Below, one piece after another: positions 19,602 through 48,568 of a DNA stretch of 64,000 nt. The translations under genes were made by a program, and so were the position numbers. Each line of letters starts with the position of its first letter. Within the stretch, counting starts at the first letter, position 1. The notes under the pieces were generated by a model. It was given only the letters and a program-made list of their open reading frames with translations, made no database searches and was not told where the DNA came from. Source of the DNA: Ruminococcus sp. (lineage in GTDB: Bacteria; Bacillota; Clostridia; Oscillospirales; Ruminococcaceae); contig NZ_JAEFAJ010000011.1 in NCBI RefSeq assembly GCF_016287535.1, forward strand, positions 1 through 64,000, given 5' to 3'.

Positions 19602-20990
19602 TCATAATGTCTTTATAAATTCTTCTATTGGCTTGACTGAACCGGTACTGGAAGAAAGATATGCATAGTATGCAAGTATCTTTGAAGCGTCAACGGAATC
19701 AACGATACCGTTGACGTCAACGTCAGCAAGCTTTGCCTGTGCGTCCGTGAAGCTGCCTTCGCCTGTGGAACGCTTTGCATACTCTGCAAGAACGCTGGAA
19801 GCGTCTACCGCGTCAACGAAGCCGTCGGAATTTACATCGCCTGACTTTGCGGAAGGCTGCTGTTCACCTGCTACCTTTTTATAAGTCGCAAGCGCGTGCT
19901 CCGGATAGCTGCTCTTGTCGCTGAGGCTCTCAAAGGTACTGCTGAGAAGTCCTGTATCGTCGTGGAGCTTGCCTATCTTTTCAAGAATGGCAGCCGCGAT
20001 AGCAACGTGTCCGCTCTGATTCGGGTGAACGTCGATATCAGAGAGCTTTTCTGCCTGTATGTCCACAAAGTAATGTGTATTGCCTGGATTGTTCGTACTG
20101 AGCATATCATAAGCGGTCTTTCCGCTGCCTATCTCTCCGTTGTATGATGTGAACTGATCCCATACGTCCACTACTTCTATACCGCTTACGTCTGCAAGCT
20201 GGTCGGAATAGGACTTCATGATGTTCTCAAGCTCAAGTCTGACAACGCTGAGCATCAATGAGGCATTTGAGCCCTTTCCGTATTTTGTGCTGACATATGA
20301 CGGCTCAAGCTGTACAGGCTGGAATATAGTCTGAACATATACCTTTGCGTTCGGATTTGTCTTCTTTATGCTGTCAACTGCCTTCTGTACATTGGTTATC
20401 ACATGGTCTCCGATATATCCGCCGCTGTACGTCTTTGCTTTTTTGTCATAACTTCCGCATATATCACTGCTCAGATTTCCTATCTCGGTGCTGAAGCTCA
20501 TGGCTTCGGTATATGAGCCCTGCATACGCTCCTTGACAGCGTTTACATCTATCATTCTTGTCATATCCGCAACATTCGGATGTTCGGGAACATCCTTTGC
20601 GGAATAGCCCTCGTTGAAGAAATCCTTGCGCTCCGCATAATCGAGCATATACTTTGCGATATAGCCCATTATATCGTTGCCGCCTACGGAAATGACAACA
20701 TACTCCGCATCTGAAAGGTTCTTGTTCTGTTCAGCGCTGAATCCTGCGAGCTTTTCGAGCATATCATCGGTCGTATCGCCGACCTTTGCGTAGTTGAATA
20801 CGTCGCAGCCGAGATAGTCGCCGCATATCTCGCCGTAATTATGCTCTACGTCGCCCTTCCTCGTATATCCTGCAGCTATGCTGTCTCCGAGCAGTACCAT
20901 GCTGTCTTTGTCTGCCGCCACTGCTGTGACTGATGAGAGAGCTGTAACTCCAAGAACTGTTGAAATGAATGCTGAGATTATTTTTTTCAT
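19602..20990 (-). CDS. Secreted SGNH/GDSL esterase with C-terminal dockerin
   Basis: The 462-residue protein has a signal peptide (residues 1-26, ending AVAA) and an SGNH hydrolase domain (about 30-360). The MVLLGDSIAAGYT block holds nucleophile Ser37. SVGGNDIMGY is block III and DVHPNQSGHVAIA near residue 335 holds the catalytic Asp/His. A dockerin follows at about 383-452, with two calcium loops: GDVNSDGFVDAVDASSVL and ADVDVNGIVDSVDASKIL. It is therefore a cellulosomal enzyme, likely a carbohydrate esterase that deacetylates xylan or similar polymers. The dockerin resembles that of the adaptor protein at 27335. GAGGAGG precedes the start. Confidence 0.92.
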   Translation of the reverse strand: MKKIISAFISTVLGVTALSSVTAVAADKDSMVLLGDSIAAGYTRKGDVEHNYGEICGDYLGCDVFNYAKVGDTTDDMLEKLAGFSAEQNKNLSDAEYVVISVGGNDIMGYIAKYMLDYAERKDFFNEGYSAKDVPEHPNVADMTRMIDVNAVKERMQGSYTEAMSFSTEIGNLSSDICGSYDKKAKTYSGGYIGDHVITNVQKAVDSIKKTNPNAKVYVQTIFQPVQLEPSYVSTKYGKGSNASLMLSVVRLELENIMKSYSDQLADVSGIEVVDVWDQFTSYNGEIGSGKTAYDMLSTNNPGNTHYFVDIQAEKLSDIDVHPNQSGHVAIAAAILEKIGKLHDDTGLLSSTFESLSDKSSYPEHALATYKKVAGEQQPSAKSGDVNSDGFVDAVDASSVLAEYAKRSTGEGSFTDAQAKLADVDVNGIVDSVDASKILAYYAYLSSSTGSVKPIEEFIKTL

Positions 20991-21133: not shown

Positions 21134-23188
21134 TTATTTTGCACCTTCCATAATAGCGCTGAGGACATTTCCCACCCATGAAAGGGCTCCGCGGTTGAAT
21201 ATGCCGAAGCTTGACTCGCCGCTCATCTTGCCGTTGTCCCATACAAAGCACTTTATGCCCTTGGACTTGGCTGCGCTTATGTAATATGTATAATAGCTGC
21301 TTCTTGTAGCCGCGTCGGCAGCGTTTACACAGCCGAACTCGTCAATGATAACAGGTATGCCCTTGTCAATGAACTTCTGCTTCAGCTCCGAGAACTTGGC
21401 TTCAAGCTCGCCCTTGCCGCTCTCGGTGAATACCGTTTCATTTCCCTCGGCAAAGTTCCACGGAGCGTAATAATGAACGCTGAATATGACGTTTTTTACG
21501 CCCGGTACTGACATATCGTTTATAGCCACACTGTCGGCAGAAGCCGCGTATGAAGTAACAATGAGGGATCTGTCGGCGTTCTTTCCGCCGCTTGCCCGGA
21601 CTGTGCTCACAAAATCCCTGGCATACTTGTTGACTATCCTGCGTTCTTCCTTGGTTCCGCCCATCCACTCCATTGATGAACCGACGGTCCTTGGCTCGTT
21701 CATTCCCTCAAAGAGAAGGCGGTCGTCATAGTCTGCGAAGCGCTCTGCTATCTGCTCCCATATCTTTTTGAGACGTGCGCTGTCCTCCTCATATGAAGCC
21801 GCCTGCGGATCGAACCATATATAGTCGTCGTGATGCATATTCAGTATCACGAAAAGGTCCTCGCTGTAGGCGTAGTCAACTACCTCCTGCACACGGTCGA
21901 GCCATTCCTTCCGTATCAAATCTCCGTCCATATGCTCTGCCCACGTTACAGGTATCCTTACAGCATTGAAGCCCGCGCTTTTTACGGACTGTATCATTTC
22001 CTTCGTAGTTTTCATATTGCCCCAGCCCACTTCGGTGCTGAGACCTTTTTTGCCGGTATTGTAGCTGTCAAGGGTATTTCCGAGGTTCCAGCCGACCTTT
22101 ATATCTGATACTATCTCAGCTGCGCTGCGGAATCCGTTCAGACTGTGGGCTGCTGTCTCAGTAGCCACTTCCAGCACAGGTTTGGTCTCCGGAGCAGGAT
22201 AATCGCCTGTTCCGGTGCTGTACTTCACGTTTATGCTCTTTAATGTAACAGACGGCTGTTCGCTCCACCAATATTTGAACAGCAGTTCATTGCCGTCGGC
22301 TATATAGCCCTTTGCCTTGTCCGGTACGAACCACACGAGGTCGAGCGCGGAATCGTCGGTAAACACGGCTGTATCACCGTCAGTATATTCGCCTGCCGAT
22401 GAGTTTATACCGAAAGCGCCGGTGAATTTTCCGAGCCTGCCGTCTGATTCTATACTGAATGTTACGACCTCCGGCACCATGCCTGAGGGGATAAAGTCAA
22501 GGGGGACGCGCACTGTCCTGTCGCCTTCAGAATAATTCACGCTCTCGCCTGATTTTGCTATGCCGGCACCGTCAACAGGCACTTCCCTTGTTCTTTCAAG
22601 AGTACATATCACATTTTCTATCCTCAGGCTCTCACAGTTTCCCCACCAGTAGCCGAACATTACTTCTCCGCTCTCGTGGATATAATCCTTAAGTTCATCC
22701 GGTACGTTCCATGTTATCTCGCCGTATGTGCCCTGTGTGGGCGCTGTGAACTCCTCTGACTGATACCAGCCCTTATGTGTAGCCGCCGCGCACTTATCGT
22801 CAACCGATATTCCGCAGCCGCCCTTGAACTCGCCTATACTGCTTGCTCCGTCGCCTGAATAAACAACGAATGTAAAGGAAATGATCCTGTCCCCTTCGTC
22901 TATCAGGTCTGCAAGCGGGAATTTTGCCGTATTACTTCCCTGAGCTCTTCCGATGGTCCTCCTGTCGGTCATCTGAGAGCCGATAATCGCTGAAACGGTC
23001 TCAACTGGGCTTATATGCTCGGTCGCCATCTCTATAGTTTCCTCCTCGGTAGCGGCAGTCGTTGCCTCCTGCGTTACTGTCTCTTTTTCTTTTTCTGACA
23101 GCGCAGACGATCCGCCTTTCTTTGCGCATGACACGCCAGGCAGCAGCATCGCTGCGGCTGTGAAGAGCGCCATTGCCTTTTTTCCCAT
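21134..23188 (-). CDS. Lipid-anchored GH5 endoglucanase with two N-terminal carbohydrate-binding-like modules
   Basis: The 684-residue protein has a lipobox (LLPGVSC, Cys21) and a Thr/Glu-rich spacer. Two related beta modules follow, at about 75-200 and 215-325, each with a diagnostic double Trp (FGYWWGN and FKYWWSE). The GH5 catalytic domain spans about 350-680. Catalytic residues are visible: the acid/base Glu in EGMNEPR (about 498) and the nucleophile Glu in IIDEFG (about 617), with NLGNTLD, VRIPVTW, LNMHHDD and HYYAPW. It looks like subfamily GH5_4. The double-Trp modules may be CBM80-like, a family described from R. flavefaciens. There is no dockerin, so the enzyme acts on the cell membrane side independently of the cellulosome. 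Confidence 0.9.
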   Translation of the reverse strand: MGKKAMALFTAAAMLLPGVSCAKKGGSSALSEKEKETVTQEATTAATEEETIEMATEHISPVETVSAIIGSQMTDRRTIGRAQGSNTAKFPLADLIDEGDRIISFTFVVYSGDGASSIGEFKGGCGISVDDKCAAATHKGWYQSEEFTAPTQGTYGEITWNVPDELKDYIHESGEVMFGYWWGNCESLRIENVICTLERTREVPVDGAGIAKSGESVNYSEGDRTVRVPLDFIPSGMVPEVVTFSIESDGRLGKFTGAFGINSSAGEYTDGDTAVFTDDSALDLVWFVPDKAKGYIADGNELLFKYWWSEQPSVTLKSINVKYSTGTGDYPAPETKPVLEVATETAAHSLNGFRSAAEIVSDIKVGWNLGNTLDSYNTGKKGLSTEVGWGNMKTTKEMIQSVKSAGFNAVRIPVTWAEHMDGDLIRKEWLDRVQEVVDYAYSEDLFVILNMHHDDYIWFDPQAASYEEDSARLKKIWEQIAERFADYDDRLLFEGMNEPRTVGSSMEWMGGTKEERRIVNKYARDFVSTVRASGGKNADRSLIVTSYAASADSVAINDMSVPGVKNVIFSVHYYAPWNFAEGNETVFTESGKGELEAKFSELKQKFIDKGIPVIIDEFGCVNAADAATRSSYYTYYISAAKSKGIKCFVWDNGKMSGESSFGIFNRGALSWVGNVLSAIMEGAK

Positions 23189-23194
23189 TGTCAA

Positions 23195-23573: not shown

Positions 23574-24482
23574 ATGTTTGATTCAAGAAAAAAAGCGATC
23601 GCACTGGCAGCTGTTCTCTGCGTTGCTCTTACTTCATTTACATCATGTCTCGCTTCAAAGGAGCAGGGCTCAAACAACGGCAGCTCTGACAAGACTACCA
23701 CTACCGCTGCTTCCGATCAGCAGTCCGCAACTCCCGATATCGAGATCGACCAGATAAAGGATGATAAAGGAAATGTTGTCGTTACTCCTTTCCAGTCCGG
23801 TTCTCTCGAAGATTTCGCTGCGACCGGAATGCCCGCAGGCAACGACGGTCTCTCCGGCGAGGATCCCACATCTGCACAGCCCGCTACCGAAATAGTTGAG
23901 GTAACTGAGGCAAACGGAGAGAAGGCTACAGACGCTCAGGGTCAGGTAGTTACAGAGATCATCACAAAGGCTACAGAAGCTTCCGATGAATATGTAAGCA
24001 AGATCGACAAGAGATACTGTCTCTGGATCGATATCTCCGTAGATCCTGACAAGGATACCGAAAAGAACGGCGTAAAGATTACTCAGGACGGTTATGCATT
24101 CAACGACCAGTTCATCAAGGTGACCTTCAAGCTCAAGGACAATATCCCTGAAAAGGATTACGCTGTAAGATTCACCCCTGACTTCTCAAGCCTCCGCGGC
24201 GTTTCACAGAAGCCCAAGGTTATCCAGGGCGACATCAGAGTCGGCGGCTCCATCGACCCTCAGAATGTTTCAGGTGAGTCCGGATTCGTTGCATACGGCG
24301 ACAATGTCTCCGCAAAGGCAGGAGATACAGTTGATTACTACATCAACCTCAAGAACAATCCCGGTCTCGCAGGTATGCTCGTATGGGTATACTATGACTC
24401 AAACGCTATGGATATCGTAAGCCTCAGCGCTGCAGGCGATTACGCCAAGATCGCCAAGGGTACACAGACAGGCTCCAACTGA
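23574..24482 (+). CDS. Lipoprotein ending in a half cohesin-like domain
   Basis: The 302-residue protein has a lipoprotein signal (LTSFTSC, Cys25), then a Ser/Thr/Asp-rich disordered stretch to about 140. A beta-rich module (150-240) follows, and then a segment at 242-292 that reads like the first half of a cohesin: DNVSAKAGDTVDYYINLKNN, then PGLAGMLVWVYYDSNAMDIV. A complete cohesin would need about 80 more residues, but the frame stops and is followed at once by a terminator, with no continuation in another frame. It may be a truncated cohesin or a related short beta module. It has its own perfect promoter and terminator and is monocistronic. Confidence 0.75.
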   Translation: MFDSRKKAIALAAVLCVALTSFTSCLASKEQGSNNGSSDKTTTTAASDQQSATPDIEIDQIKDDKGNVVVTPFQSGSLEDFAATGMPAGNDGLSGEDPTSAQPATEIVEVTEANGEKATDAQGQVVTEIITKATEASDEYVSKIDKRYCLWIDISVDPDKDTEKNGVKITQDGYAFNDQFIKVTFKLKDNIPEKDYAVRFTPDFSSLRGVSQKPKVIQGDIRVGGSIDPQNVSGESGFVAYGDNVSAKAGDTVDYYINLKNNPGLAGMLVWVYYDSNAMDIVSLSAAGDYAKIAKGTQTGSN

Positions 24483-26567: not shown

Positions 26568-26597
26568 TTGACATTCAATGCACAGTTGTGATATACT
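26568..26597 (+). promoter_or_regulatory. Promoter for the lipoprotein at 26659
   Basis: TTGACA and TATACT are 18 bp apart, about 60 nt before the ATG at 26659. The promoter diverges from that of the Rrf2 gene. Confidence 0.75.
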
Positions 26598-26658
26598 ATA
26601 TGTGCCAAAAATAAATATATACCGTTATACGGTCCATGATACAACGGAGGAGAAAACA

Positions 26659-27270
26659 ATGAAAATAAAAAAAGCTGCCGCGCTCATTCTTGCAGCCTTC
26701 ATCACAGCTGCTGTTTCAGCAGGATGTATGGATAACAGCAAAAACAATACAACAGATTCTTTAGAGGATATCATACCCACAAAAAACACAACTCCGGTTG
26801 ACCCCATCGGTTCACATGAGATAAAGGGCGTCATCGGAAGCGAGATAACAGAGAATGATACATCCTTCACTCTTAAATCCGTAATAGTTCCCGATTCTGA
26901 TGACAGCGAAAAATTCGTTTACTTTGATATCGACCTCAGGAACAATACTGATACCGCTTATACTCTCAGTACACTCAACAACTTCTATATACAGCTTGCA
27001 GACGGCACCGACGTATATTCTGACGTGCGCAGCCAGCTCTACGCAGGAGAGATCTTCAAAAAGGACAAATACTTCCTCGATCCCTTCGATATCCCGTCAA
27101 ACGGTCAGTTCAGCGGTATCGTGGGCGGATTCGTTCTCCGGAAGGACGTGAACGATTTCACCGTCTGCTTCTTCCCGACAGGAAGCAACCCCAACGACAA
27201 GGGCACGGTCATCAAGTTTGCCGTGACGGCTGAAAATATCAGCGCTCCCGATCCGTCGGTAATCAAATAA
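26659..27270 (+). CDS. Lipoprotein with DUF4352-like Ig domain
   Basis: From the ATG behind GGAGGAG the protein has 203 residues. It has a lipobox (VSAGC) near residue 22, an Asn/Thr/Asp-rich linker, and a beta-sandwich from about 55 to 195: GSEITENDTSFTLKSVIVPD, FVYFDIDLRNNTDTAYTLST, FYIQLADG and GIVGGFVLRKDVNDFTVCF. This layout is typical of DUF4352-type extracytoplasmic proteins. The role is unknown; it may bind a ligand or assist surface proteins. It is monocistronic with its own promoter and terminator. Confidence 0.75.
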   Translation: MKIKKAAALILAAFITAAVSAGCMDNSKNNTTDSLEDIIPTKNTTPVDPIGSHEIKGVIGSEITENDTSFTLKSVIVPDSDDSEKFVYFDIDLRNNTDTAYTLSTLNNFYIQLADGTDVYSDVRSQLYAGEIFKKDKYFLDPFDIPSNGQFSGIVGGFVLRKDVNDFTVCFFPTGSNPNDKGTVIKFAVTAENISAPDPSVIK

Positions 27271-27277
27271 GCATCAA

Positions 27278-27306
27278 GAAAGCCCGCTTGCGCGGGCTTT
27301 CTTTTT
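27278..27306. terminator. Bidirectional terminator
   Basis: AAAGCCCGC and GCGGGCTTT pair across a 4-nt loop, with a T run on the plus strand and a shorter one on the minus strand. It serves the lipoprotein at 26659 and probably the convergent cohesin-dockerin gene. Confidence 0.88.
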
Positions 27307-27334: not shown

Positions 27335-28252
27335 TCATAATACAGCGAACTCATCAAAGCTGAGTTCTCCTCCTGCTGACACATATGCATAGTACGCAAG
27401 AACTATAGAAGCGTCCACTGCGTCTATCATGCCGTCCTTATTAACGTCGCAGGTATACATTTCCTCTTCCGTCGGTTCATAGCCGACAGTTGAGATCTTT
27501 GCATAATTCGCCATCATATATGAAGCGTCTACCGCGTCTATGATCCCGTCACCTGTAGGATCTCCGTTCTTCAGGTTTATTTCAGGCTCAGGAACAGTTG
27601 TAGGCTCTTCAGCGGTTATTTTTATATAACCCTGCTCGATTCCGCGGGTAAATACCCATGCGTCCATGAGTCTGCCCTGCTTGTCCTGCGAAAGATTCGT
27701 GAACATATCGCTGGAATTCTTGGCCTTCTGATAGTATATCTCTATGGGATATACATCGCCTTCCTTTACATCTTCAGGCAGGCATACATTGAATATCCAC
27801 ATGACGCCGTCCTTGCCCTTGTTTGAAGAAGCGCCTGTCATTACGAACACGCCGTGGGGCACGTCGTTCTCATCTATCCAGTCGGCTGAATTCTCTATCA
27901 TGCCTATCCTTGACAGCGCAGGACCGCTCTCGGCATAATCGCCGTCGTCGTCCAGTATTATCAGTCTGTCATCAAACTTGACGTGTATACCCGTGGAAGA
28001 ATACTTACCCTCTGCACCGTTAACTGTCATTTCTATCTTCTGTTCGGGCTCTTCCTTCGCCTTGTTCAGCGGGAGCTCTATCTGACTCAATGACAGTGTA
28101 GGTCTGATCTTTGAATTATCCGGATCAATTCCTTCATCAAACTGGTACGGATCTCCGGCTGCAGGTCCTGCATACACCCTTGACACTGAGGGCGCAAGTA
28201 TCAGTGATAATGCCGCTGCGGCTGCTATAACTCTTATTATTGTTCCTTTCAT
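27335..28252 (-). CDS. Secreted cohesin-dockerin adaptor with ScaE-like cohesin
   Basis: The 305-residue protein has a signal peptide (1-28), one cohesin (about 33-213) and a dockerin (about 227-294). The cohesin matches the ScaE cohesin of this same window along its length: RPTLSLSQ with KPTVSLSQ, AEGKYSSTGIHV with AEGKYAPTGFHV, KDGVMWIF with RDGVLWEF, and DAWVFTRGIEQGYI with QAWVFTNGIEQGYI. The dockerin loops GDPTGDGIIDAVDASYMM and CDVNKDGMIDAVDASIVL resemble those of the SGNH esterase. Unlike ScaE it has no sorting signal, so it is free unless docked. It could attach X-dockerin proteins (ScaB, CttA) to an enzyme-type cohesin. GGGGAGG precedes the ATG. Confidence 0.92.
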   Translation of the reverse strand: MKGTIIRVIAAAAALSLILAPSVSRVYAGPAAGDPYQFDEGIDPDNSKIRPTLSLSQIELPLNKAKEEPEQKIEMTVNGAEGKYSSTGIHVKFDDRLIILDDDGDYAESGPALSRIGMIENSADWIDENDVPHGVFVMTGASSNKGKDGVMWIFNVCLPEDVKEGDVYPIEIYYQKAKNSSDMFTNLSQDKQGRLMDAWVFTRGIEQGYIKITAEEPTTVPEPEINLKNGDPTGDGIIDAVDASYMMANYAKISTVGYEPTEEEMYTCDVNKDGMIDAVDASIVLAYYAYVSAGGELSFDEFAVL

Positions 28253-28429
28253 TTTACTAACCTCCCCTGTCCCCTTAACAGGTTCTTTTCATATTATTAT
28301 TGTAGCACTTTTCACACATTTTTGCAATATACTCACTGTATTTTCAGAGATTATAACAATCAGCATACAGTTTTTTGACGCTTTTAAACATAAAAAAGCA
28401 TATATTACAGCTACGTCAACAAAATTCCA

Positions 28430-30079
28430 CTAACCGCGTCCGGAACAGCTTTCCGGAAGCACGGAAAGCACTCTCAGAAGCACTATATACACGGTCCCGC
28501 CGACAGCCGCAGACGCTCCTATAACCGCAAATACGGGTGCTCCAAAGCGTTCAGCCGCACAGGCCGCAAGGTATGCCGAACCGCCGCACATAGCTCCCGA
28601 ATACATCACTCTTCCGAAGGGTGAAAACCTCAGCCTTACTCCCGAAGCCCTGATATATGTCCACAGCGAAGCTGCAAGAATGAGCACATAGCATACAGAA
28701 GTGGAGAGCGCCGCTCCGTCAACGCCCATAAAGGGTATGAAAAGAAGATTGCAGATAAGCTTCACCGCAGTCCCGGCAAGCATTATTTTCAGCGGCGCAG
28801 CAGGCTTCCCCACTGCCTGAAGCATACTGAAAAGCGGATAGGACACGCACAGACATACCATACCTGCCATGAGATACCTGAGGGGAGACGTACACAGTGC
28901 GGCTTCGTCAGACTGGCGTGGATAGAGAAAAGCCAGTATCTGAGGCGCAAGCACGAATATCCCTGCCGCAGCGGGAACAGATATGACCGAAGAAGTCAGA
29001 AGCGCCTGCATTGTGCCTTGCTCAAGAGCTCCTTTGTCACCGCTGCCGCGGGCGGAGGCTATGCAGGTAAGAGCTCCCTTGCCGAGCATATTCGTCACCG
29101 ACGGCACAAGACTGAATACAGTAAGCGCTATGCCCGCAAACGAACCGTATATAAACTGCGGCAGCTCTCCTTCGGATATTCCTGTCGGAGCTGCCGCAGG
29201 GCTGCCGAAACGGGATATGCACCATATCACAGTCCACATATCAACAAGAGCTGTGAGATTGGTCACAAGTGCGCTTACTCCGATGGGAAGAGCCGTCGAG
29301 AAAAGCTCACCTGCGATAGCTTTTCTGCTCATGGTAAAGGTCTCGCCGCCCTGCGGAGCATGAATAAAAAGCCGCATCACAGCAAAAAAAAGCACCGCTC
29401 CTGCCGTGGAAAGCGTGACGCCGAGTATTCCTGCCGCCGCGGCTGCCCCGCGTATATCCGTGACTCCCGGAAAAAAACTCATTACCATGACCGGATGTGC
29501 GGTAACGTAGCTGCACAGGAACAGTCCCGCAGCCGCCTTTACAACGCTCTCCGCCGCCTGTGACAGAGCAGTGGGGTACATATTGCTCATGCCCTCATAG
29601 TAGCCGCGCTCCACCGCGGTTATACATCCGAAAAATACAGCCGGAGCTATCATGGCTACCGCCGCCGACGCCTCAGTGCTGCCGGTAAAATAAAGACTGA
29701 ACGGCTTGGCAAGAAGAAGTATCAGCAGGCTCCCTGCGAGTCCTGCAGCCGAAAAGATCATAAGAGCTTCACGGCGTACCTTACGGGCGTTGGCGTACAT
29801 ACCGAGGGCTGTGCTCTGAGCCGTCATACGCGCCACTGCTGAACTCAGTCCGGTAACGGTCAGAGCATACACCGGCATGAACAGACTGTACGCGCAGCTG
29901 AAATAGCTCATTCCTATACCGCCAAGTATATTGGTGAGCGGTATCCTGAACACCGCACCGAGTATTTTCGCTGCCGCTGCCGATATCATCAGTATTATCG
30001 AGCCCTTGATGAAATTCTGCTTTTTCAGTCCGAAACGCCTCCCTTTTGACTTTTTGCATACCAAAAATCCCTTTTTCAC
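28430..30079 (-). CDS. SpoVB/YabM-like polysaccharide flippase (MVF/MATE fold)
   Basis: The protein has up to 549 residues with about 14 membrane helices. The N-terminus FIKGSIILMISAAAAKILGA and FRIPLTNILGGIGMSYFSCA is typical of SpoVB and related lipid-linked oligosaccharide flippases, as is MFFAC-like patterning through SVTNMLGKG and LYPRQSDEAALCTSPLRYLM. It probably moves peptidoglycan or polysaccharide precursors. The start is unclear: the GTG at 30079 has no ribosome binding site, whereas GGGAGG lies well placed before a CTG at 30028. In Bacillus yabM sits with mazG (yabN) and rqcP (yabO), which here are 3.3 kb away. Confidence 0.88.
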   Translation of the reverse strand: MKKGFLVCKKSKGRRFGLKKQNFIKGSIILMISAAAAKILGAVFRIPLTNILGGIGMSYFSCAYSLFMPVYALTVTGLSSAVARMTAQSTALGMYANARKVRREALMIFSAAGLAGSLLILLLAKPFSLYFTGSTEASAAVAMIAPAVFFGCITAVERGYYEGMSNMYPTALSQAAESVVKAAAGLFLCSYVTAHPVMVMSFFPGVTDIRGAAAAAGILGVTLSTAGAVLFFAVMRLFIHAPQGGETFTMSRKAIAGELFSTALPIGVSALVTNLTALVDMWTVIWCISRFGSPAAAPTGISEGELPQFIYGSFAGIALTVFSLVPSVTNMLGKGALTCIASARGSGDKGALEQGTMQALLTSSVISVPAAAGIFVLAPQILAFLYPRQSDEAALCTSPLRYLMAGMVCLCVSYPLFSMLQAVGKPAAPLKIMLAGTAVKLICNLLFIPFMGVDGAALSTSVCYVLILAASLWTYIRASGVRLRFSPFGRVMYSGAMCGGSAYLAACAAERFGAPVFAVIGASAAVGGTVYIVLLRVLSVLPESCSGRG

Positions 30080-41450: not shown

Positions 41451-42380
41451 TTAGTCTTCCTTCTTTCTGAGAACAAATGCTGTACCTACAGCTACTGCGA
41501 GGCCTGCTACTGCGAGACCTACGCCCTTTTCGCCTGTCTTAGTTGCGTTGTTCTTATTTGTAGTAGTTGTTGTAACCTTCTTAGTTGTTGTAGTTACCTT
41601 CTTAGTTGTTGTAGTTGTAGGAGGTGTTGTTGTAGTTGTTGTAGGAGGTGTTGTTGTAGTTGATGTAGGAGGTGTTGTTGTAGTTGTTGAAGTTGTTGTT
41701 GTTGTAGGAGGTGTTGTAGTTGTTGTTGTAGGAGGTGTTGTAGTTGTTGTTGTAGGTCCAACTACCTCGATGTAGCCCTGCTCGATACCGTTTGTGAATA
41801 CCCAAGCCTGCATGAGCTGACCTTCGTCGTTCTGTGCTACGTTTGTGAAGAGGTCCTTAGCTGTCTCTGTGCTCTTGTACATGATATTTACTTCATACTT
41901 GTCGCCAACCTTAGCGTCTGAAGGAAGCTTTAAATCAAATTCCCAGAGAACGCCGTCTCTACCTGTGTTCTCAGGTGAGCCAGTTGTTACAAAGAAACCG
42001 TGATCGCCGTTCTTTGTCATATCCTTGCTCTTGAGCTTCTTACCAGCATCGCCGAGCTCAGCGATATCGCCGTCTCTCTCAACGAGAGTGAGCTTTGAGT
42101 CATAATCTACATGGAAACCTGTAGGAGCGTATTTGCCCTCAGCATCCTTAACGGTAAGCTGCATAGTAACAGGTGTAGCGATGTCGCTAATGTTAACCTG
42201 CTTCTGTGAAAGTGATACTGTAGGCTTGATCTCTGACTTAGTTGGGTCATACTTTGATGTATCATACTTATCGCCTGTTGCTGAACCAGCAAAAGCAGTC
42301 ATAGCTGAGCCTGTAAGAGCTACAGCAGATACAGCGAGTGCTGCGATAGCACTCTTAAATGCATTCTTCTTCATTGTCAT
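41451..42380 (-). CDS. scaE: Cell-wall anchoring scaffoldin ScaE (single cohesin)
   Basis: The 309-residue protein has a signal peptide (1-31), one cohesin (about 34-207), a long Thr/Pro linker (208-274) and a C-terminal sorting region: ATKTGEKG (279-286), a hydrophobic helix and the RKKED tail. In R. flavefaciens ScaE is attached to the wall by sortase and its cohesin binds the X-dockerins of ScaB and CttA. The sorting motif here is ATKTG, not LPxTG. It is the last gene of the cluster, after cttA, with a hairpin in the gap. GAAAGG precedes two possible ATG starts. Confidence 0.93.
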   Translation of the reverse strand: MTMKKNAFKSAIAALAVSAVALTGSAMTAFAGSATGDKYDTSKYDPTKSEIKPTVSLSQKQVNISDIATPVTMQLTVKDAEGKYAPTGFHVDYDSKLTLVERDGDIAELGDAGKKLKSKDMTKNGDHGFFVTTGSPENTGRDGVLWEFDLKLPSDAKVGDKYEVNIMYKSTETAKDLFTNVAQNDEGQLMQAWVFTNGIEQGYIEVVGPTTTTTTPPTTTTTTPPTTTTTSTTTTTPPTSTTTTPPTTTTTTPPTTTTTKKVTTTTKKVTTTTTNKNNATKTGEKGVGLAVAGLAVAVGTAFVLRKKED

Positions 42381-42476: not shown

Positions 42477-44717
42477 TTAGTTCTTGGCTGTTGCAGTAGC
42501 CCAGAGCTCCTTGTTTGACTTGGAAGCGTTATCCTCTGAAGATCTTAATGTGTAGAATCTCATGATCTGTGATGAATCAACTGCGTCAATAACTCTTGCA
42601 TTCTTTCTTGCAAGTCTTGTTACAGGAGGATCAGCATCAGGATTTACATCGCAGAGGAATGCAGCGAACTCTTCATACTCGCTTGTTGTACTTGTTACGA
42701 GCGGGCTTGATGAGAGATTAACTTCGCTTGACTTCTTGCCGCCTGAAAGCTCTGTGTAGTATCTGAGTACCTGTGAAGCGTCAACTGCGTCTGCATAACC
42801 GTCGAGGTTTGCGTCGCCCTTAACACCGATGAGTACATCGATAGATGCGCTGAGACCAACATTGTCCTTAGCAGGCTTGCCGTCTACATAGATCTGTACG
42901 CTGTACTTGAACTTGTCATTGCCAGCCTTGTATGTATTGGCGGGTGTAGCTGTACCGAAGCTGATTCTGTCAGCTGAGACATCCTCTACCTTATCAGTCT
43001 CTGCCTTGTTTACCTTATTGCCTTCAGCGTCTGTGTAGCCTTCAACATAGATTGTGTGGAGCTTAGCGTTCTGAACCTGCTCCTTATCGAAGCTCTCTTC
43101 GATATTGCTGTAGTAAGCTGTATCTGTATCGTAATCGAGATACTGCTTAACAACAGAAGTTGTAACAGTTGTTGTTACGGGTGTAGTTGTAACTGATGTA
43201 GTTGTTGTATTTGTTACAAGAACTCTTTCGATCTGAAGGTCAACGTCGCCGATCTCCTTGGTCTTGAGACCTGAAAGATCTGCAGCAGCTGTGATCTTCT
43301 TGTAAGAATTAACAAGAACGTAGCCCTGCTTAGCAAGGTATTCTGTTAACTCCTTGATCTCCTTGTCGCTTTCGGGAACTGTAAATGTAACTGTGCCCTT
43401 AGCGCCTTCTGTTTCAGCCTTGATGTTCATGAGGCTGTCTGCAAACTTACCTGCATCAGCAGCGGAGATATTGATTCTGTTGCCTGTAGCCTCCATAGCC
43501 TTTGCATAGATCTTGAGAACATTCTCATCAGCAGCGATATCAGTTGCTTTTACGGGGATCTGCTGAGCAACTCCCCTAGCAGCCAGATACTGATTTACTC
43601 TTGCGATCATCTCAGAAACATTTGCGAAAGTCTTAACGCGCTTATGAGAGTTGAGGAAGTATGTAACCATTCTGTCTCCCTCACCTGCAGCCTTGATGAA
43701 CTTATCGATCTTCTCATCGTACTTCTTCTGAAGCGTATCAGCAAGTGACTTCTGGAACTTCTTCTGGATGCCCTTGTCGCCTGCTGCCTTGATAGCCTTT
43801 AAGCTGTCCTGGAAGAACTTGGGAAGCTGACCAAGGTAATATGTCTTGCCGTCGTTGCACTTGTACTCGAACTCAGCAGAAACTGTTGTACCCTTGTTTA
43901 TGTCAGAACCGTTGATTGTAAGTGTGAAAGTACCGCCAACCTTTGTAGGCTCTTCCTCTTCCTCTGTCTCAGTGAAGTCGATATCTGAAAGCTCGATAGC
44001 AACATAGTCCTGAGCGATATTCTTGATGGTCTCGTTGTCAAGCTCTTTTTCCTTGAGGCTTGTGAGATCACTGATTGTCTTTACGTCGTCGCTTGCAAGT
44101 TCGGGAATATCGTACTTGTCAGCGAGATCCTGACGAACCTCTTTATCGATAGTTGAAAGGTCGATATTCTTGAGTTCCTCAATATCTATGCCTTCGGGAA
44201 TGATAGACATATCAAATCCCTCAGGAATTTCATACTTTGGAGCCATTGCGCGTCCAGGAGCCTTCTTGGGAGCCTTTGACGCATTATTCATTTCATTCCT
44301 GATTACTTCATTGAAATCAGGCTCAGCGATCTTACCTGTGATAACAACGTCAAGGTTTGACTTTACGTTGTACTCGATATCGCTTACGAGACTTAATGCA
44401 TACTCTGCAACGTCCTTGTAATCGCCTGCCTTGCTGATAATGTCAGCAGCATAGTCATTGATGTCGATTTTACCGCTCTTACCCTCAAATGAAGCAAAAT
44501 GATGAGCCAGATTCTTGTTCCACCTGGATACTGTCTGGTCAGCGGGGATATAAAGCAGATCCTCTATAGTTACTCCGCTCTTCTCCTCTGCCTGAACTTT
44601 TACGGTACCTGCAACATCGTTTGTTGATACAGCGTTTGCGTAAGTAAGACACTGTGTGAGAGCCAGCGGAACAGCTGCTGCTGCTGCGATTGCCCTCTTG
44701 AATAATGAATTCTTCAT
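42477..44717 (-). CDS. cttA: CttA-type surface protein with X-dockerin module
   Basis: From the ATG after AGAGAGG the protein has 746 residues. It has a signal peptide (about 1-29) and a large N-terminal region (30-500). A Thr/Val linker (501-523), an X module (about 524-632) and a dockerin (633-735, loops GDANLDGYADAVDASQVL and IDAVDSSQIMRFY) follow. In R. flavefaciens CttA carries two cellulose-binding modules and docks on ScaE, fixing cells to cellulose. Gene position and the X-dockerin identify it. The N-terminal half is charged and helix-rich with few aromatic residues, so cellulose binding cannot be confirmed by eye. Confidence 0.85.
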   Translation of the reverse strand: MKNSLFKRAIAAAAAVPLALTQCLTYANAVSTNDVAGTVKVQAEEKSGVTIEDLLYIPADQTVSRWNKNLAHHFASFEGKSGKIDINDYAADIISKAGDYKDVAEYALSLVSDIEYNVKSNLDVVITGKIAEPDFNEVIRNEMNNASKAPKKAPGRAMAPKYEIPEGFDMSIIPEGIDIEELKNIDLSTIDKEVRQDLADKYDIPELASDDVKTISDLTSLKEKELDNETIKNIAQDYVAIELSDIDFTETEEEEEPTKVGGTFTLTINGSDINKGTTVSAEFEYKCNDGKTYYLGQLPKFFQDSLKAIKAAGDKGIQKKFQKSLADTLQKKYDEKIDKFIKAAGEGDRMVTYFLNSHKRVKTFANVSEMIARVNQYLAARGVAQQIPVKATDIAADENVLKIYAKAMEATGNRINISAADAGKFADSLMNIKAETEGAKGTVTFTVPESDKEIKELTEYLAKQGYVLVNSYKKITAAADLSGLKTKEIGDVDLQIERVLVTNTTTTSVTTTPVTTTVTTSVVKQYLDYDTDTAYYSNIEESFDKEQVQNAKLHTIYVEGYTDAEGNKVNKAETDKVEDVSADRISFGTATPANTYKAGNDKFKYSVQIYVDGKPAKDNVGLSASIDVLIGVKGDANLDGYADAVDASQVLRYYTELSGGKKSSEVNLSSSPLVTSTTSEYEEFAAFLCDVNPDADPPVTRLARKNARVIDAVDSSQIMRFYTLRSSEDNASKSNKELWATATAKN

Positions 44718-44850
44718 CGTTCTATACCTCTCTAACATGTTTATTCCCCTTTTGCCCGAGACACGTCTTGGTCACAAGTGGCCCCGTGCATTAGGCTAAA
44801 TTTCGGGGGGGTGCAATCTGCGTAAGAGTACAATTCGCCCCAAAATTCAT
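44718..44850 (-). promoter_or_regulatory. Structured 5' leader of cttA
   Basis: Between the proximal promoter and the cttA start lie about 130 nt with unusual GC-rich text in an AT-rich setting. On the minus strand AATTTTGGGG can pair with CCCCGAAATT (one G-T wobble). A second GC-rich block (GCACGGGGCCACTTGTGACC) follows before the ribosome binding site. It resembles no riboswitch class I can name. It may be a translational control element. Confidence 0.5.
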
Positions 44851-45130: not shown

Positions 45131-48100
45131 TTATGAACCTTCTTCCTCGGTTTCTGTGCTCTTGACCAAATCCTTCCATATCTGACCATTTGAATACTCA
45201 GAATATGCAGATGATGATCTTCTTGCGTAGAATCCAAGGATCTGTGAAGAGTCAACTGAGCTTATCTCTCTGTTATTCTTCTTTGTTGACCAGTTGCCTG
45301 CATCCCATTCATTCTCGGTTACATCGCCGAGGAATGCTGCAAAGTCTTCAAATAACGAAGCGCTGCTCTCCGGAACTTTAAGTCCGTTAGCGTTTGCATC
45401 ACAAATACTGAAGCCTGAAGGAACATTTCCGTTAACTGACAAGAACGCATAGTAAGAAAGCGCAATTGAGCAGTCTGTTGCATCTACCATGTTGCTGAGA
45501 GTGATATCACCCTTAACACCGATAAGTGCAGTGATGCTGAGTGCAGCACCGGTTGAATCTACCAGCGGCAGATCACCGTAGTATGCCTGAACATCGTACT
45601 TGAATTCCTCCATTGTTACATCCTTGTCTGTGTGATGCTCAACAGAATTGTATACGCTCTCAGGTGTTGCGCCGTGGAAGTTGATCAATGAATAATCAAG
45701 ATTCTTTCTAACGACTGACTGACCGTTATCGTAAACGTCTACGATACTGATAGCCTTTACCTGACCAGCCTGGAATCCACCGTTTTCACCATTGTCATGG
45801 CTGAAGTAGAAACCAACTTCGGTATCAATTGTTGCATAAGCTCTTACCCAGCCTGCAGAAGTTGAGGTTGTAGGATAAAGAGTTGATGTAACTGTGCTTG
45901 TTGTAGTATTTGTTGATGTGCTCGAAGTTGAAGAAGTGGTCGATGTTGTCGGACCGCTTGTCGAACTTGTTGTCGAGCTTGTTGACGATGTTGTCGTCTT
46001 GCTTGAAGTCGAAGAAGTGGTCGATGTTGTCGGACCGCTTGTTGAACTTGTTGTCGAGCTTGTTGACGATGTTGTCGTCTTGCTTGAAGTCGAAGAAGTG
46101 GTCGATGTTGTCGGACCGCTTGTCGAACTTGTTGTCGAGCTTGTTGACGATGTTGTCGTCTTGCTCGTTGTTGTAGTTGTGGTTGTTGACGTTGTAGTTG
46201 TAGTAGGTGTAAGAACCTTTATCTCGCCGCCTACAACAAAGATCTTGTCTGCAATATTTACAGCCTTATCGCCTGAAGCTGAAAGATTCTTGATATCCAC
46301 AGGGATAGAACCAGCCTTAGCGTCGTCATTGATCTTGTAAGTAAGCTCAACTACTGTCGAACCGTTAGCAGCAGAGTGTCTTTCACCCTTGCCGTCAAAG
46401 AACATAAGTCTTATCTGGTCTTCGCTCTTTAAAATATCAGCGCCGTAAGCGGACTTGTCGCTTACACCTGTGAGCTTGACACCGTCGCCTGCTACCATAT
46501 CAAACATAGCGCCGCTGATAGCGAGTGCATTGTTTGAAGGATCGTAAACCTTAACCTTGATCTTGACCTCATCACCGGGGTAGCCTTCTGCGCTGCCTAC
46601 CAGCCAAGCAATATCCTTATCCTGAGGAATGGTTATTGTTGTTGATGTGCTTGTAGAAGGATCTACGCTGCTGATTGTGGTTGTAGTAGGCTTAGTTTCT
46701 CCGGACGATGTTGTAACTGTAGTTACGGTAGAAGTTGTAACTTTTCCGATTGTGATGGAACCGTCCTCAAACTTCACCTTTGAAGTTACGTTAACGCCCT
46801 TTTCAGCGCTTACAGTTGTATCCTTCCACTGTACTGCATAAGTACCAGCAGCAGTATCTTCAGGAATAGCAAAAGTAAGTGTCATGATAACTGTACCGTC
46901 AGCCTCAGCCTTACCTGTTCTCTTAGCGAAGAGGTAAACATTCTGCTCAGCGTTCTTTGAGAGCTCTGCGCCGTAAGGAGTACCCTTGATCTCACTCAGA
47001 GTGATAGGAGTCTTAGCTGAGATACCGAACTGACCGCCTGCGATAGCGAGGTCAGAAGTTCCCTTAACGGTAACCTTGAGGTCAACGCTCTTTGTGCCGG
47101 GCTCAACAGTAACATCATCGATGTCCCATGTGATACCGTCAGTAGTAACGTCTGAACCTACCTTGATAGTACCGTCAACGAACTGTACCTTTGAAGTGAT
47201 ATTCTGTGATAATGCGTTGCTGACGCTCTGATCAGCCCACTTTATCTTGTATGTGCCTTCTTTACACTTTTCGTCAACCTTGAATGAGAGCTTGACAACA
47301 GTCTTGCCGTCTGCTGCTGCTACAGCTGCTGAACCCGGCTTGCCGAACATAAGGATGCCCTTGTCGATGTTAGCGCTTATAGCTGCATCATAAGCCTCTG
47401 ATTTCTCAGAAGATGCTGTGAGCTTGATATCGTCAGTCTCTGAAACGATTGCGAACTGTGCGCCTGCGATAGCAACTGCTGCGTCTGCTGAATCAACAAC
47501 AGCGCTGAGCTGTACTGTATCGCCGGGCTTAGCGTTCTCTGTACCGAGAACCCACTTGATCTTGCCATCAGCTGATGGCTTCTTAACTGTAATGGAACCG
47601 TCCTTGAATGTTACCTTTGAAGTAATATTCTGAGCCTTTCCGTTACTTACAGTCTGATCTGACCACTTGATGTTATATTTGCCCTCAGCGCAATCTGTAG
47701 GAACAACATAAGTAAGTGTCATGATCTCAGCCTTATCGGCTGCAACTACGCCGTCCTTAGCGAACTTTGAGAAGAGGAACGCAGGATTGGCACCTGTGTT
47801 GTTGACCTCGATCGTAGCGTCGTAAGCTCCGCCGTCCTTTACGGAATCGAACTTGACAGGTGAATCAGCGCTTATAACGAACTGACCGCCTGCAACTCCT
47901 ATTGCGGAACCTTCTGTATTGTTGACATAAGCCTTGAGAGTAACCTTCTCGCCTGGCTCAGCTGTAACATTGTCAAGTACCCACTCAACAGAACCGTCCT
48001 CAGCGTCTTTCTTGACATTGATTGCACCATCTGTGAATTTTACCTTGTCTGTTACATTTACGCCCTGGGGAGCACTTACTGTACCCTCAGACCACTTTAT

Positions 48101-48568
48101 GTCATATTTGCCCTCCGCACAATCTGCGGGGATAGTGAATTTAAGAGTACCAACTACAGAATTCTCTGCAGCTACCTTACCCTTTACACCACTAAAAAGA
48201 AATGTATTTTCGTCTGCATTGGAAGCAATATTGTAACCGTATGCATTACCTGTTACGATTGAATCGAACTTAATCGGCGAGCCAGCTTTGATTGTAAACT
48301 GTCCGCCTGAAACCTCAAGGCTTGAACCCAGTGCAACAATTGGCATTGTGACCGTCTGGCCGGGTGCTGCTGTTACTGTCGGGATCTTCCATTCAACTGT
48401 TCCGTCTGCAGCGAATGTCTTAGCAGAAACATCCAGTACTTCGCCCATACTAATGTTAGGCTGCTCGGCAGTTAAACTACCGGCAGCACTAACTGACGAA
48501 GCAAATGCACCTGCCATGAGCGATACGCTCATGGCAACGGATGTAACTGCAGAAAGCAGTTTCTTCAT
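45131..48568 (-). CDS. scaB: Scaffoldin ScaB with five cohesins and X-dockerin
   Basis: The 1145-residue protein has a signal peptide (1-29). Four cohesins lie in close tandem (about 56-187, 191-331, 333-472 and 475-610). After a Thr/Ser linker comes a fifth, more divergent cohesin (652-788), then a 117-residue Thr/Ser linker with three 27-residue repeats, an X module (906-1015) and a dockerin (1018-1120). ScaB is the central scaffoldin: its cohesins take ScaA or enzymes and its X-dockerin binds ScaE on the wall. Well-studied strains are reported with seven or nine cohesins, so this copy is short. The first calcium loop (GDITLSNMVDATD) lacks the usual acidic residues at positions 3 and 5. Confidence 0.93.
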   Translation of the reverse strand: MKKLLSAVTSVAMSVSLMAGAFASSVSAAGSLTAEQPNISMGEVLDVSAKTFAADGTVEWKIPTVTAAPGQTVTMPIVALGSSLEVSGGQFTIKAGSPIKFDSIVTGNAYGYNIASNADENTFLFSGVKGKVAAENSVVGTLKFTIPADCAEGKYDIKWSEGTVSAPQGVNVTDKVKFTDGAINVKKDAEDGSVEWVLDNVTAEPGEKVTLKAYVNNTEGSAIGVAGGQFVISADSPVKFDSVKDGGAYDATIEVNNTGANPAFLFSKFAKDGVVAADKAEIMTLTYVVPTDCAEGKYNIKWSDQTVSNGKAQNITSKVTFKDGSITVKKPSADGKIKWVLGTENAKPGDTVQLSAVVDSADAAVAIAGAQFAIVSETDDIKLTASSEKSEAYDAAISANIDKGILMFGKPGSAAVAAADGKTVVKLSFKVDEKCKEGTYKIKWADQSVSNALSQNITSKVQFVDGTIKVGSDVTTDGITWDIDDVTVEPGTKSVDLKVTVKGTSDLAIAGGQFGISAKTPITLSEIKGTPYGAELSKNAEQNVYLFAKRTGKAEADGTVIMTLTFAIPEDTAAGTYAVQWKDTTVSAEKGVNVTSKVKFEDGSITIGKVTTSTVTTVTTSSGETKPTTTTISSVDPSTSTSTTITIPQDKDIAWLVGSAEGYPGDEVKIKVKVYDPSNNALAISGAMFDMVAGDGVKLTGVSDKSAYGADILKSEDQIRLMFFDGKGERHSAANGSTVVELTYKINDDAKAGSIPVDIKNLSASGDKAVNIADKIFVVGGEIKVLTPTTTTTSTTTTTTTSKTTTSSTSSTTSSTSGPTTSTTSSTSSKTTTSSTSSTTSSTSGPTTSTTSSTSSKTTTSSTSSTTSSTSGPTTSTTSSTSSTSTNTTTSTVTSTLYPTTSTSAGWVRAYATIDTEVGFYFSHDNGENGGFQAGQVKAISIVDVYDNGQSVVRKNLDYSLINFHGATPESVYNSVEHHTDKDVTMEEFKYDVQAYYGDLPLVDSTGAALSITALIGVKGDITLSNMVDATDCSIALSYYAFLSVNGNVPSGFSICDANANGLKVPESSASLFEDFAAFLGDVTENEWDAGNWSTKKNNREISSVDSSQILGFYARRSSSAYSEYSNGQIWKDLVKSTETEEEGS
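45920..46162. repeat. 81-bp coding tandem repeat in the ScaB linker
   Basis: Three nearly identical 81-bp units encode the 27-residue Thr/Ser repeat (each with SGPTTST) at residues 803-883 of ScaB. The near-identity of units at DNA level implies recent duplication or homogenisation; linker length may vary between strains. Confidence 0.9.

Follow-up and report, generated by a model that had tools for sequence, protein, structure and literature searches.

Closest described systems

Among the dockerin groups described for FD-1, group 1 carries the motifs VxIMQxxxNP and ALxIQKxxL and binds ScaA-type cohesins, and group 4 is internally symmetrical, with subgroup 4a resembling the dockerins of ScaB and CttA and with peptidases and transglutaminase-like proteins among the proteins that bear it; the ScaE-like protein of this strain has a group-1b dockerin (excerpts of PMC2930009). 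Excerpts of PMC5301203 report that group-4 dockerins bind ScaE, that the ScaH dockerin binds its own cohesin, that group-2 dockerins recognise both ScaE and ScaH, and that the ScaH cohesin accepts dockerins of groups 2 and 4, as ScaE does. Binding of X-dockerins to cohesin H is given there as very weak on microarrays but supported by ELISA, which backed cohesins G and H as partners of the ScaB X-dockerin. The structure PDB 8ajy pairs a ScaE cohesin with a ScaH dockerin, and an excerpt of PMC12484212 credits Duarte 2023 with the ScaE-ScaH structure, which shows dual binding, and with the view of ScaH as a variable-length spacer. Each strain has 5–11 bi-modular cohesin-dockerin proteins (PMC4081043, in part).

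The protein considered here, termed the adaptor, is encoded in a 64,000-nucleotide stretch, referred to as the window, of the genome of a Ruminococcus sp., a fibre degrader of the rumen type. The features of the window that are needed below are as follows.

27335..28252, minus strand: adaptor gene (P0001), 305 aa, with signal peptide, ScaE-type cohesin, short linker and class-C (group-4-like) dockerin
28169..28252, minus strand: signal peptide, residues 1–28, identified by eye
27614..28105, minus strand: ScaE-type (type III) cohesin, residues ~50–213, from sequence and structure-database matches
27566..27613, minus strand: linker between cohesin and dockerin, ~17 residues
27374..27565, minus strand: dockerin, residues ~230–293, two symmetrical repeats IIDAVDAS / MIDAVDAS, from Pfam and class HMMs
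28261..28267, minus strand: ribosome-binding site GGGGAGG, 8 nt 5' of the adaptor ATG, identified by eye
27276..27303, no strand assigned: two-way terminator-like hairpin in the gap that separates the adaptor from the lipoprotein gene convergent with it
28430..30079, minus strand: MviN/MATE-like gene, upstream border of the slot
26578..27270, plus strand: lipoprotein gene, second border of the slot
41451..42380, minus strand: scaE, single cohesin anchored to the wall, which presumably receives the adaptor dockerin
42477..44738, minus strand: cttA, with a C-terminal X-dockerin (ADAVDAS / IDAVDSS), presumably cargo for the adaptor cohesin
45131..48568, minus strand: scaB, with an X-dockerin (VDATDCS / ISSVDSS) and five cohesins by Pfam, presumably also cargo
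19602..20990, minus strand: SGNH esterase whose dockerin is of class C, like that of the adaptor

Compared with these systems, the adaptor is most like FD-1 ScaH (L126, identified as ScaH because it matches the 8ajy dockerin; listed as ZP_06142361 in an excerpt of PMC5301203), which also has a ScaE-type cohesin, a symmetrical group-4 dockerin (class C) and no visible anchor. The two cohesins are, however, only 34% identical, the linker of ScaH is Thr-rich and 65 residues long against 17 in the adaptor, the recognition dyads are GR in ScaH and AV in the adaptor, and the slot occupied by the adaptor is empty in FD-1. The FD-1 ScaE-like scaffoldin, taken to be L123 (ZP_06142991 in an excerpt of PMC5301203), shares with the adaptor its length of 305 aa, a ScaE-type cohesin (44% identical) and a short linker, but has an enzyme-class dockerin (A 108.7 bits, C 11.1 bits), the wiring that had earlier been proposed for the adaptor. 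ScaE itself has the same cohesin type (44% identity) and lies in the same chromosomal region, yet it ends in a Thr linker and sorting signal where the adaptor has a dockerin, and the two form separate clades among near relatives. The standalone ScaG (4wkz, 4n2o) likewise has no sortase signal and may take X-dockerins (PMC5301203, in part), but it has no dockerin and its cohesin is remote (structure match E 0.007). ScaC is also an adaptor with a single cohesin and a dockerin, but its cohesin is recognised by Pfam and does not match, and its dockerin is of the enzyme class (A 128.7 bits).

The gene and its genomic slot

The original prediction of a secreted cohesin-dockerin protein held for the gene itself: the open reading frame lies on the minus strand at exactly 27335–28252, encodes 305 aa, and shows the architecture claimed, with a signal peptide, one ScaE-type cohesin, a linker and a dockerin. 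The protein appears to be of a secreted type with no wall anchor, as judged from the signal peptide and from the C-terminus, which reads FDEFAVL and has no sorting motif, in agreement with the claimed absence of a sorting signal; NCBIfam gave no match on the adaptor, wall-anchoring signals included. ScaE, 13 kb away, scores 23.2 bits with the NCBIfam model Rumino_NPXTG, for which the cut-off is 23.5. The adaptor is a real gene: it has a syntenic orthologue in a yak MAG (L014, 77% identical) with a dN/dS of 0.16, a ribosome-binding site and the hairpin; over three pairs the dN/dS values were 0.16, 0.20 and 0.155. AlphaFold2 modelling of the adaptor with one orthologue gave a mean pLDDT of 50.7 and a pTM of 0.43, too poor to judge docking in cis.

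The slot is the interval between the MviN-like gene and the lipoprotein gene. A match to the ScaE-type cohesin is present in 122 of the 125 genomes of the genus, and 30 loci, from 115 genomes with the MviN gene, were examined at the slot. Orthologues, which the original prediction had suggested seeking in other genomes, were found there, the yak MAG copy being one: nine loci hold a ScaE-type cohesin gene (G000, G075, G067, G105, G069, G014, G020, G001 and G058), and G011 has a weaker cohesin-like gene with a class-C dockerin, seen by tblastn only. G088 has a pair immediately past the lipoprotein gene, and at the same position G050 and G004 have a dockerin-type match alone. At the remaining 17 of the 30 loci none was found at the slot, although the border gene was not found in G008 and G072 and ~1 kb is unread in G009, G010 and G021. 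The FD-1 slot is empty, with 5 bp between the border genes; G002 was taken as FD-1, since over the printed stretches the PDB chains agree with its ScaE and its ScaH dockerin, except for one dyad of the 8ajy dockerin.

The slot orthologues retain both cohesin and dockerin, and their linkers vary in length. The five close orthologues have linkers of 17, 17, 7, 7 and 7 residues. In the slots of G001, G014 and G020 two adaptors stand in tandem; in one the linker is long and Thr-rich, in the other it has 11 residues. The long-linker copies are the following.

L160 14708–17635: long-linker adaptor at the slot of G020
L161 15022–16919: long-linker adaptor at the slot of G001
L166 1010–3618: long-linker adaptor at the slot of G014

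The long linker of G020 has 677 residues, 88 of them unread, and those of G001 and G014 pass through unread stretches. The slot, which is empty in FD-1 and others and elsewhere holds one adaptor copy or two, with linker lengths of 7 to ~677 residues, offers a natural series for studying the function of monovalent adaptors. ScaE-type cohesins were also seen in big open frames of ~1450–2300 aa (L153, L104, L113, L223, L224 and L225, from genomes G075, G013, G009, G008, G088 and G099).

Type and specificity of the cohesin

The cohesin is of the ScaE type, as had been claimed from the blocks SLSQ, AEGKY.STGIHV, KDGVMWIF and WVFTRGIEQGYI, all of which are found in the adaptor. It is identical to the ScaE of the window at 72 of 162 positions (44%; E 4e-45), whereas ScaA, ScaB and ScaC, with CttA also searched, gave only noise (best E 47), and its best matches among solved structures were the ScaE cohesins 2zf9 (E 4e-40), 8ajy and 4iu2. 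The Pfam cohesin model matched neither the adaptor cohesin nor ScaE at E 0.01.

In the cohesin tree, built from 82 of 83 rows after one weak row was dropped, the adaptor joins L014 at 100/99, then the other slot orthologues at 87/64, and next the cohesin-dockerin proteins of other species at 85/84. A group supported at 99/98 contains 14 of the 18 ScaE anchors, with the adaptor outside it; the positions of FD-1 ScaE and ScaH are unsettled, ScaH being a long branch. Forcing the five slot cohesins and 11 near-relative anchors into one clade cost 39.7 log units (AU p 0.025). This test used 72 rows, after removal of ten that were long or odd, and the group was named after the first tree had been seen. 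The original prediction had staked the ScaE assignment on the cohesin not grouping away from ScaE cohesins. It does fall outside the clade of near-relative anchors, and to that extent the prediction failed, but it lies in a related group of adaptor cohesins. A copy of ScaE that simply lost its anchor was rejected on the tree and the AU test. As for FD-1 ScaH, the best reading is that the adaptor would work like it, but orthology to ScaH was rejected, the FD-1 slot being empty and the ScaH row falling outside the adaptor clade, although on a long branch of unsure placement.

As the cohesin is of the ScaE type, binding of the X-dockerins of ScaB and CttA is a fair inference by analogy. In FD-1, ScaH and ScaE have partners in common although their cohesins share 35% identity, so that at 44% identity between the adaptor and its own ScaE a shared specificity would be reasonable. 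The specificity may nevertheless have drifted from that of ScaE, given that the adaptor cohesin lies outside the near-relative ScaE clade and has about six residues more than ScaE. No usable list of ScaE interface residues was found in excerpts of PMC4266597 or PMC7456326.

Class of the dockerin

A Pfam search of the genome gave 113 dockerin matches from 150 scored of 188 candidates, of which 112 were used (one with internal stops was left out) and 106 distinct frames were read. The dockerins are of three sequence kinds, in agreement with the published FD-1 definitions: A, with the pattern 'DANCDG.VDMSDAVLIMQALANP', which includes the ScaC dockerin; B, with 'DVFDL..RK / DLVLLQK.LLG'; and the symmetrical C, with 'DAVDAS.VLAEYA / DAVDAS.ILAYYAY'. 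By description, C was equated with group 4 and A with group 1, bound by ScaA and ScaB. Sorting the 106 frames by regular expression (A 40, B 33, C 30, unsorted 3) misplaced some of them, and class HMMs were used instead, trained on 35 (A), 33 (B) and 24 (C) dockerins; 90 of these 92 scored best in their own class, without being left out of training. Ten frames with no recognisable loop pattern were excluded from class scoring, save the adaptor, which was cut by hand.

The adaptor dockerin (Pfam E 7e-9), which was not in the training set, scored A 13.9, B 24.3 and C 85.4 bits. Its two repeats are identical to each other at 14 of 26 positions, and the published group-1 signature (IMQxxxNP, IQKxxL) is absent. 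FD-1 ScaH scored C 82.6 bits, the X-dockerins were also best in C (CttA 56.3, ScaB 41.4), and the ScaA dockerin scored poorly everywhere (A 32.7, B 32.2). The likeness that had been noted to the dockerin of the SGNH esterase at 19602 was confirmed, with both best in class C at 85.4 and 102.1 bits, but the further claim that this is an enzyme-type plug was not, and an enzyme-type dockerin for the adaptor is ruled out by the class scores. Calcium loop 1 of the adaptor dockerin (27548–27562, minus strand) reads DPTGD, and in L014 DPNGD; as DPTG is also found in the C12-type adaptors of G105, G067, G069 and G015, it need not be a defect.

Class-C and cohesin-bearing proteins of the genome

The class-C heptad occurs in 30 frames, one of which (C42_73554) was a misfit by HMM, leaving 29 proteins, and all 29 were scanned with Pfam, two of them incomplete at an edge (L037:1-4191 and L048:1-1299). 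At E 1e-4, Pfam found no glycoside hydrolase domain in any of the 29. LRR_5 was found in six, a transglutaminase core in two and CAP in two, with single cases of a papain-like peptidase, a putative esterase, a GDSL esterase, Big_2, SpaA and a heparinase-like domain; this set of domains resembles that of published FD-1 group 4. One 213-aa protein (C18, L071 590-1228) has two Pfam dockerin stretches in tandem and otherwise only EF hands.

Five ScaE-type cohesins were matched in the same genome: the adaptor, ScaE, C12, C13 and a remote lipoprotein cohesin with no dockerin (L013). C12 and C13 (L011 1042-2112 and L012 508-2220) combine a ScaE-type cohesin with a class-C dockerin; one has a Thr-rich linker, and the other has LRR_5 on its N-terminal side and a ComF-like neighbour that is present in FD-1 too.

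Proposed working and alternative explanations

Taken together with what is published for FD-1, the domain composition suggests that the adaptor is probably a monovalent adaptor scaffoldin of the ScaH kind, a type of part already known, serving as a surface extension or spacer rather than as a bridge into the enzyme sockets of ScaA and ScaB. The retention of both modules in the slot orthologues and the dyad agreement described below speak for this reading as well. Its dockerin would plug into the cohesin of wall-bound ScaE, or into that of a second adaptor copy, and its cohesin would offer the ScaE-type site again, either to the ScaB and CttA X-dockerins or to further proteins with a class-C dockerin. 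Overall, the adaptor would extend or space out the assembly at the cell surface, and adaptors might form a short chain on ScaE, joined head to tail. In FD-1, group-4 dockerins bind ScaE and the ScaH dockerin binds its own cohesin, and plug and socket would thus belong to one specificity set; this is also the reason for proposing chaining. The wiring is thereby corrected, in that the adaptor would belong to the surface-docking circuit and not to the enzyme circuit.

In the original prediction, the dockerin enters a ScaA or ScaB cohesin of the enzyme type and a further ScaB is loaded by the adaptor cohesin, giving branched or self-extending cellulosomes away from the wall. The cohesin half of that scheme is plausible, and the combination of a ScaE-type cohesin with a group-1-like dockerin does exist, in L123 (FD-1), L112 (G028) and L114 (G054). 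The adaptor dockerin, however, scores 13.9 bits in class A and 85.4 in class C, where that of L123 scores 108.7 in A; given its class, ScaB is probably not plugged into ScaA or ScaB through the adaptor, and as the likely socket is ScaE or the adaptor's own cohesin, the assembly would stay at the wall. Such a bridge now seems barely credible. A soluble shuttle, in which the adaptor would hold X-dockerin proteins during their exit and pass them to ScaE, agrees with an unanchored protein carrying a ScaE-type cohesin, and such a handing-over to ScaE has reportedly been proposed for the standalone cohesin ScaG. A shuttle would make the dockerin superfluous, though, when the genome already has the dockerin-less lipoprotein cohesin, and the orthologues keep cohesin and dockerin together, so that this role is very unlikely.

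Greater weight, although it is still unlikely, can be given to an adaptor that docks on ScaE but whose cohesin, after drifting, accepts nothing but the small dockerin proteins of class C (LRR, transglutaminase, CAP, peptidase and esterases), ScaB and CttA being excluded; this would broaden the display of the small proteins at the surface. There are 29 class-C proteins against five ScaE-type cohesins (three in cohesin-dockerin proteins, ScaE and the remote lipoprotein), the adaptor cohesin is outside the ScaE anchor clade, and the microarray signal of the FD-1 X-dockerin with cohesin H was very weak (PMC5301203, in part). The ELISA support for the ScaB X-dockerin with cohesins G and H, from the same excerpts, points the other way, as does the identity of the adaptor to its own ScaE (44%), which exceeds that of FD-1 ScaH to FD-1 ScaE (35%).

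Within the preferred reading of a ScaH-like surface adaptor, a homotypic chain is put forward tentatively, as possible but rather doubtful: starting from each ScaE on the wall, adaptor copies would link up head to tail, provided that the short linker prevents self-docking, and each species would have its private docking code. If this were true, adaptor dose and linker length would set the reach and the number of ScaB and CttA complexes off the cell.

Recognition dyads

The dyad, here the pair of residues that precedes the conserved D-A-S in the second repeat of the dockerin, varies among species and tends to agree between X-dockerins and the dockerins of non-LRR adaptors, with AV in this genome, GR in FD-1 (CttA, ScaB and ScaH) and AK/SK in G007/G012. 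An exact permutation test gave p 0.005 over 7 clades, and p 0.0006 over 9 clades (p 0.005 without FD-1) once rows had been added for G011, G041 and the second adaptors of G067, G069 and G105; the test was made post hoc with manually entered clades and dyads, and common descent contributes to the agreement. LRR adaptors, which have AV in most species regardless of the X-dockerin, were excluded. There is no dyad match whatsoever in G088 and G058, and the FD-1 adaptor L127 has a dockerin with AV beside X-dockerins with GR. The ScaC dockerin, intended as a control, has MG, MS, MA, LA or VA and never GR, AK or AV, but controls little because its dyads differ between genomes too. The dyads of X-dockerins and adaptor dockerins thus appear to drift together, and a species-private docking code is proposed as a testable idea. 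Searches of the open-licence PMC literature, which were not aimed at these points alone, found no mention of the slot or of dyad co-drift.

Neighbouring genes in the window

Two further genes near the adaptor may be mentioned. The one at 21134–23194 (minus strand) encodes a GH5 cellulase that starts like a lipoprotein and contains two DUF5620 stretches; it has no dockerin. At 23574–24482 (plus strand), a lipoprotein-like open reading frame has a C-terminus that matches positions 6–55 of the 139 of the Pfam cohesin model and then stops; its orthologue in the yak MAG (L014) has a near-equal length of 303 aa, which points to a long-standing truncation or to a minimal domain, not to a recent break.
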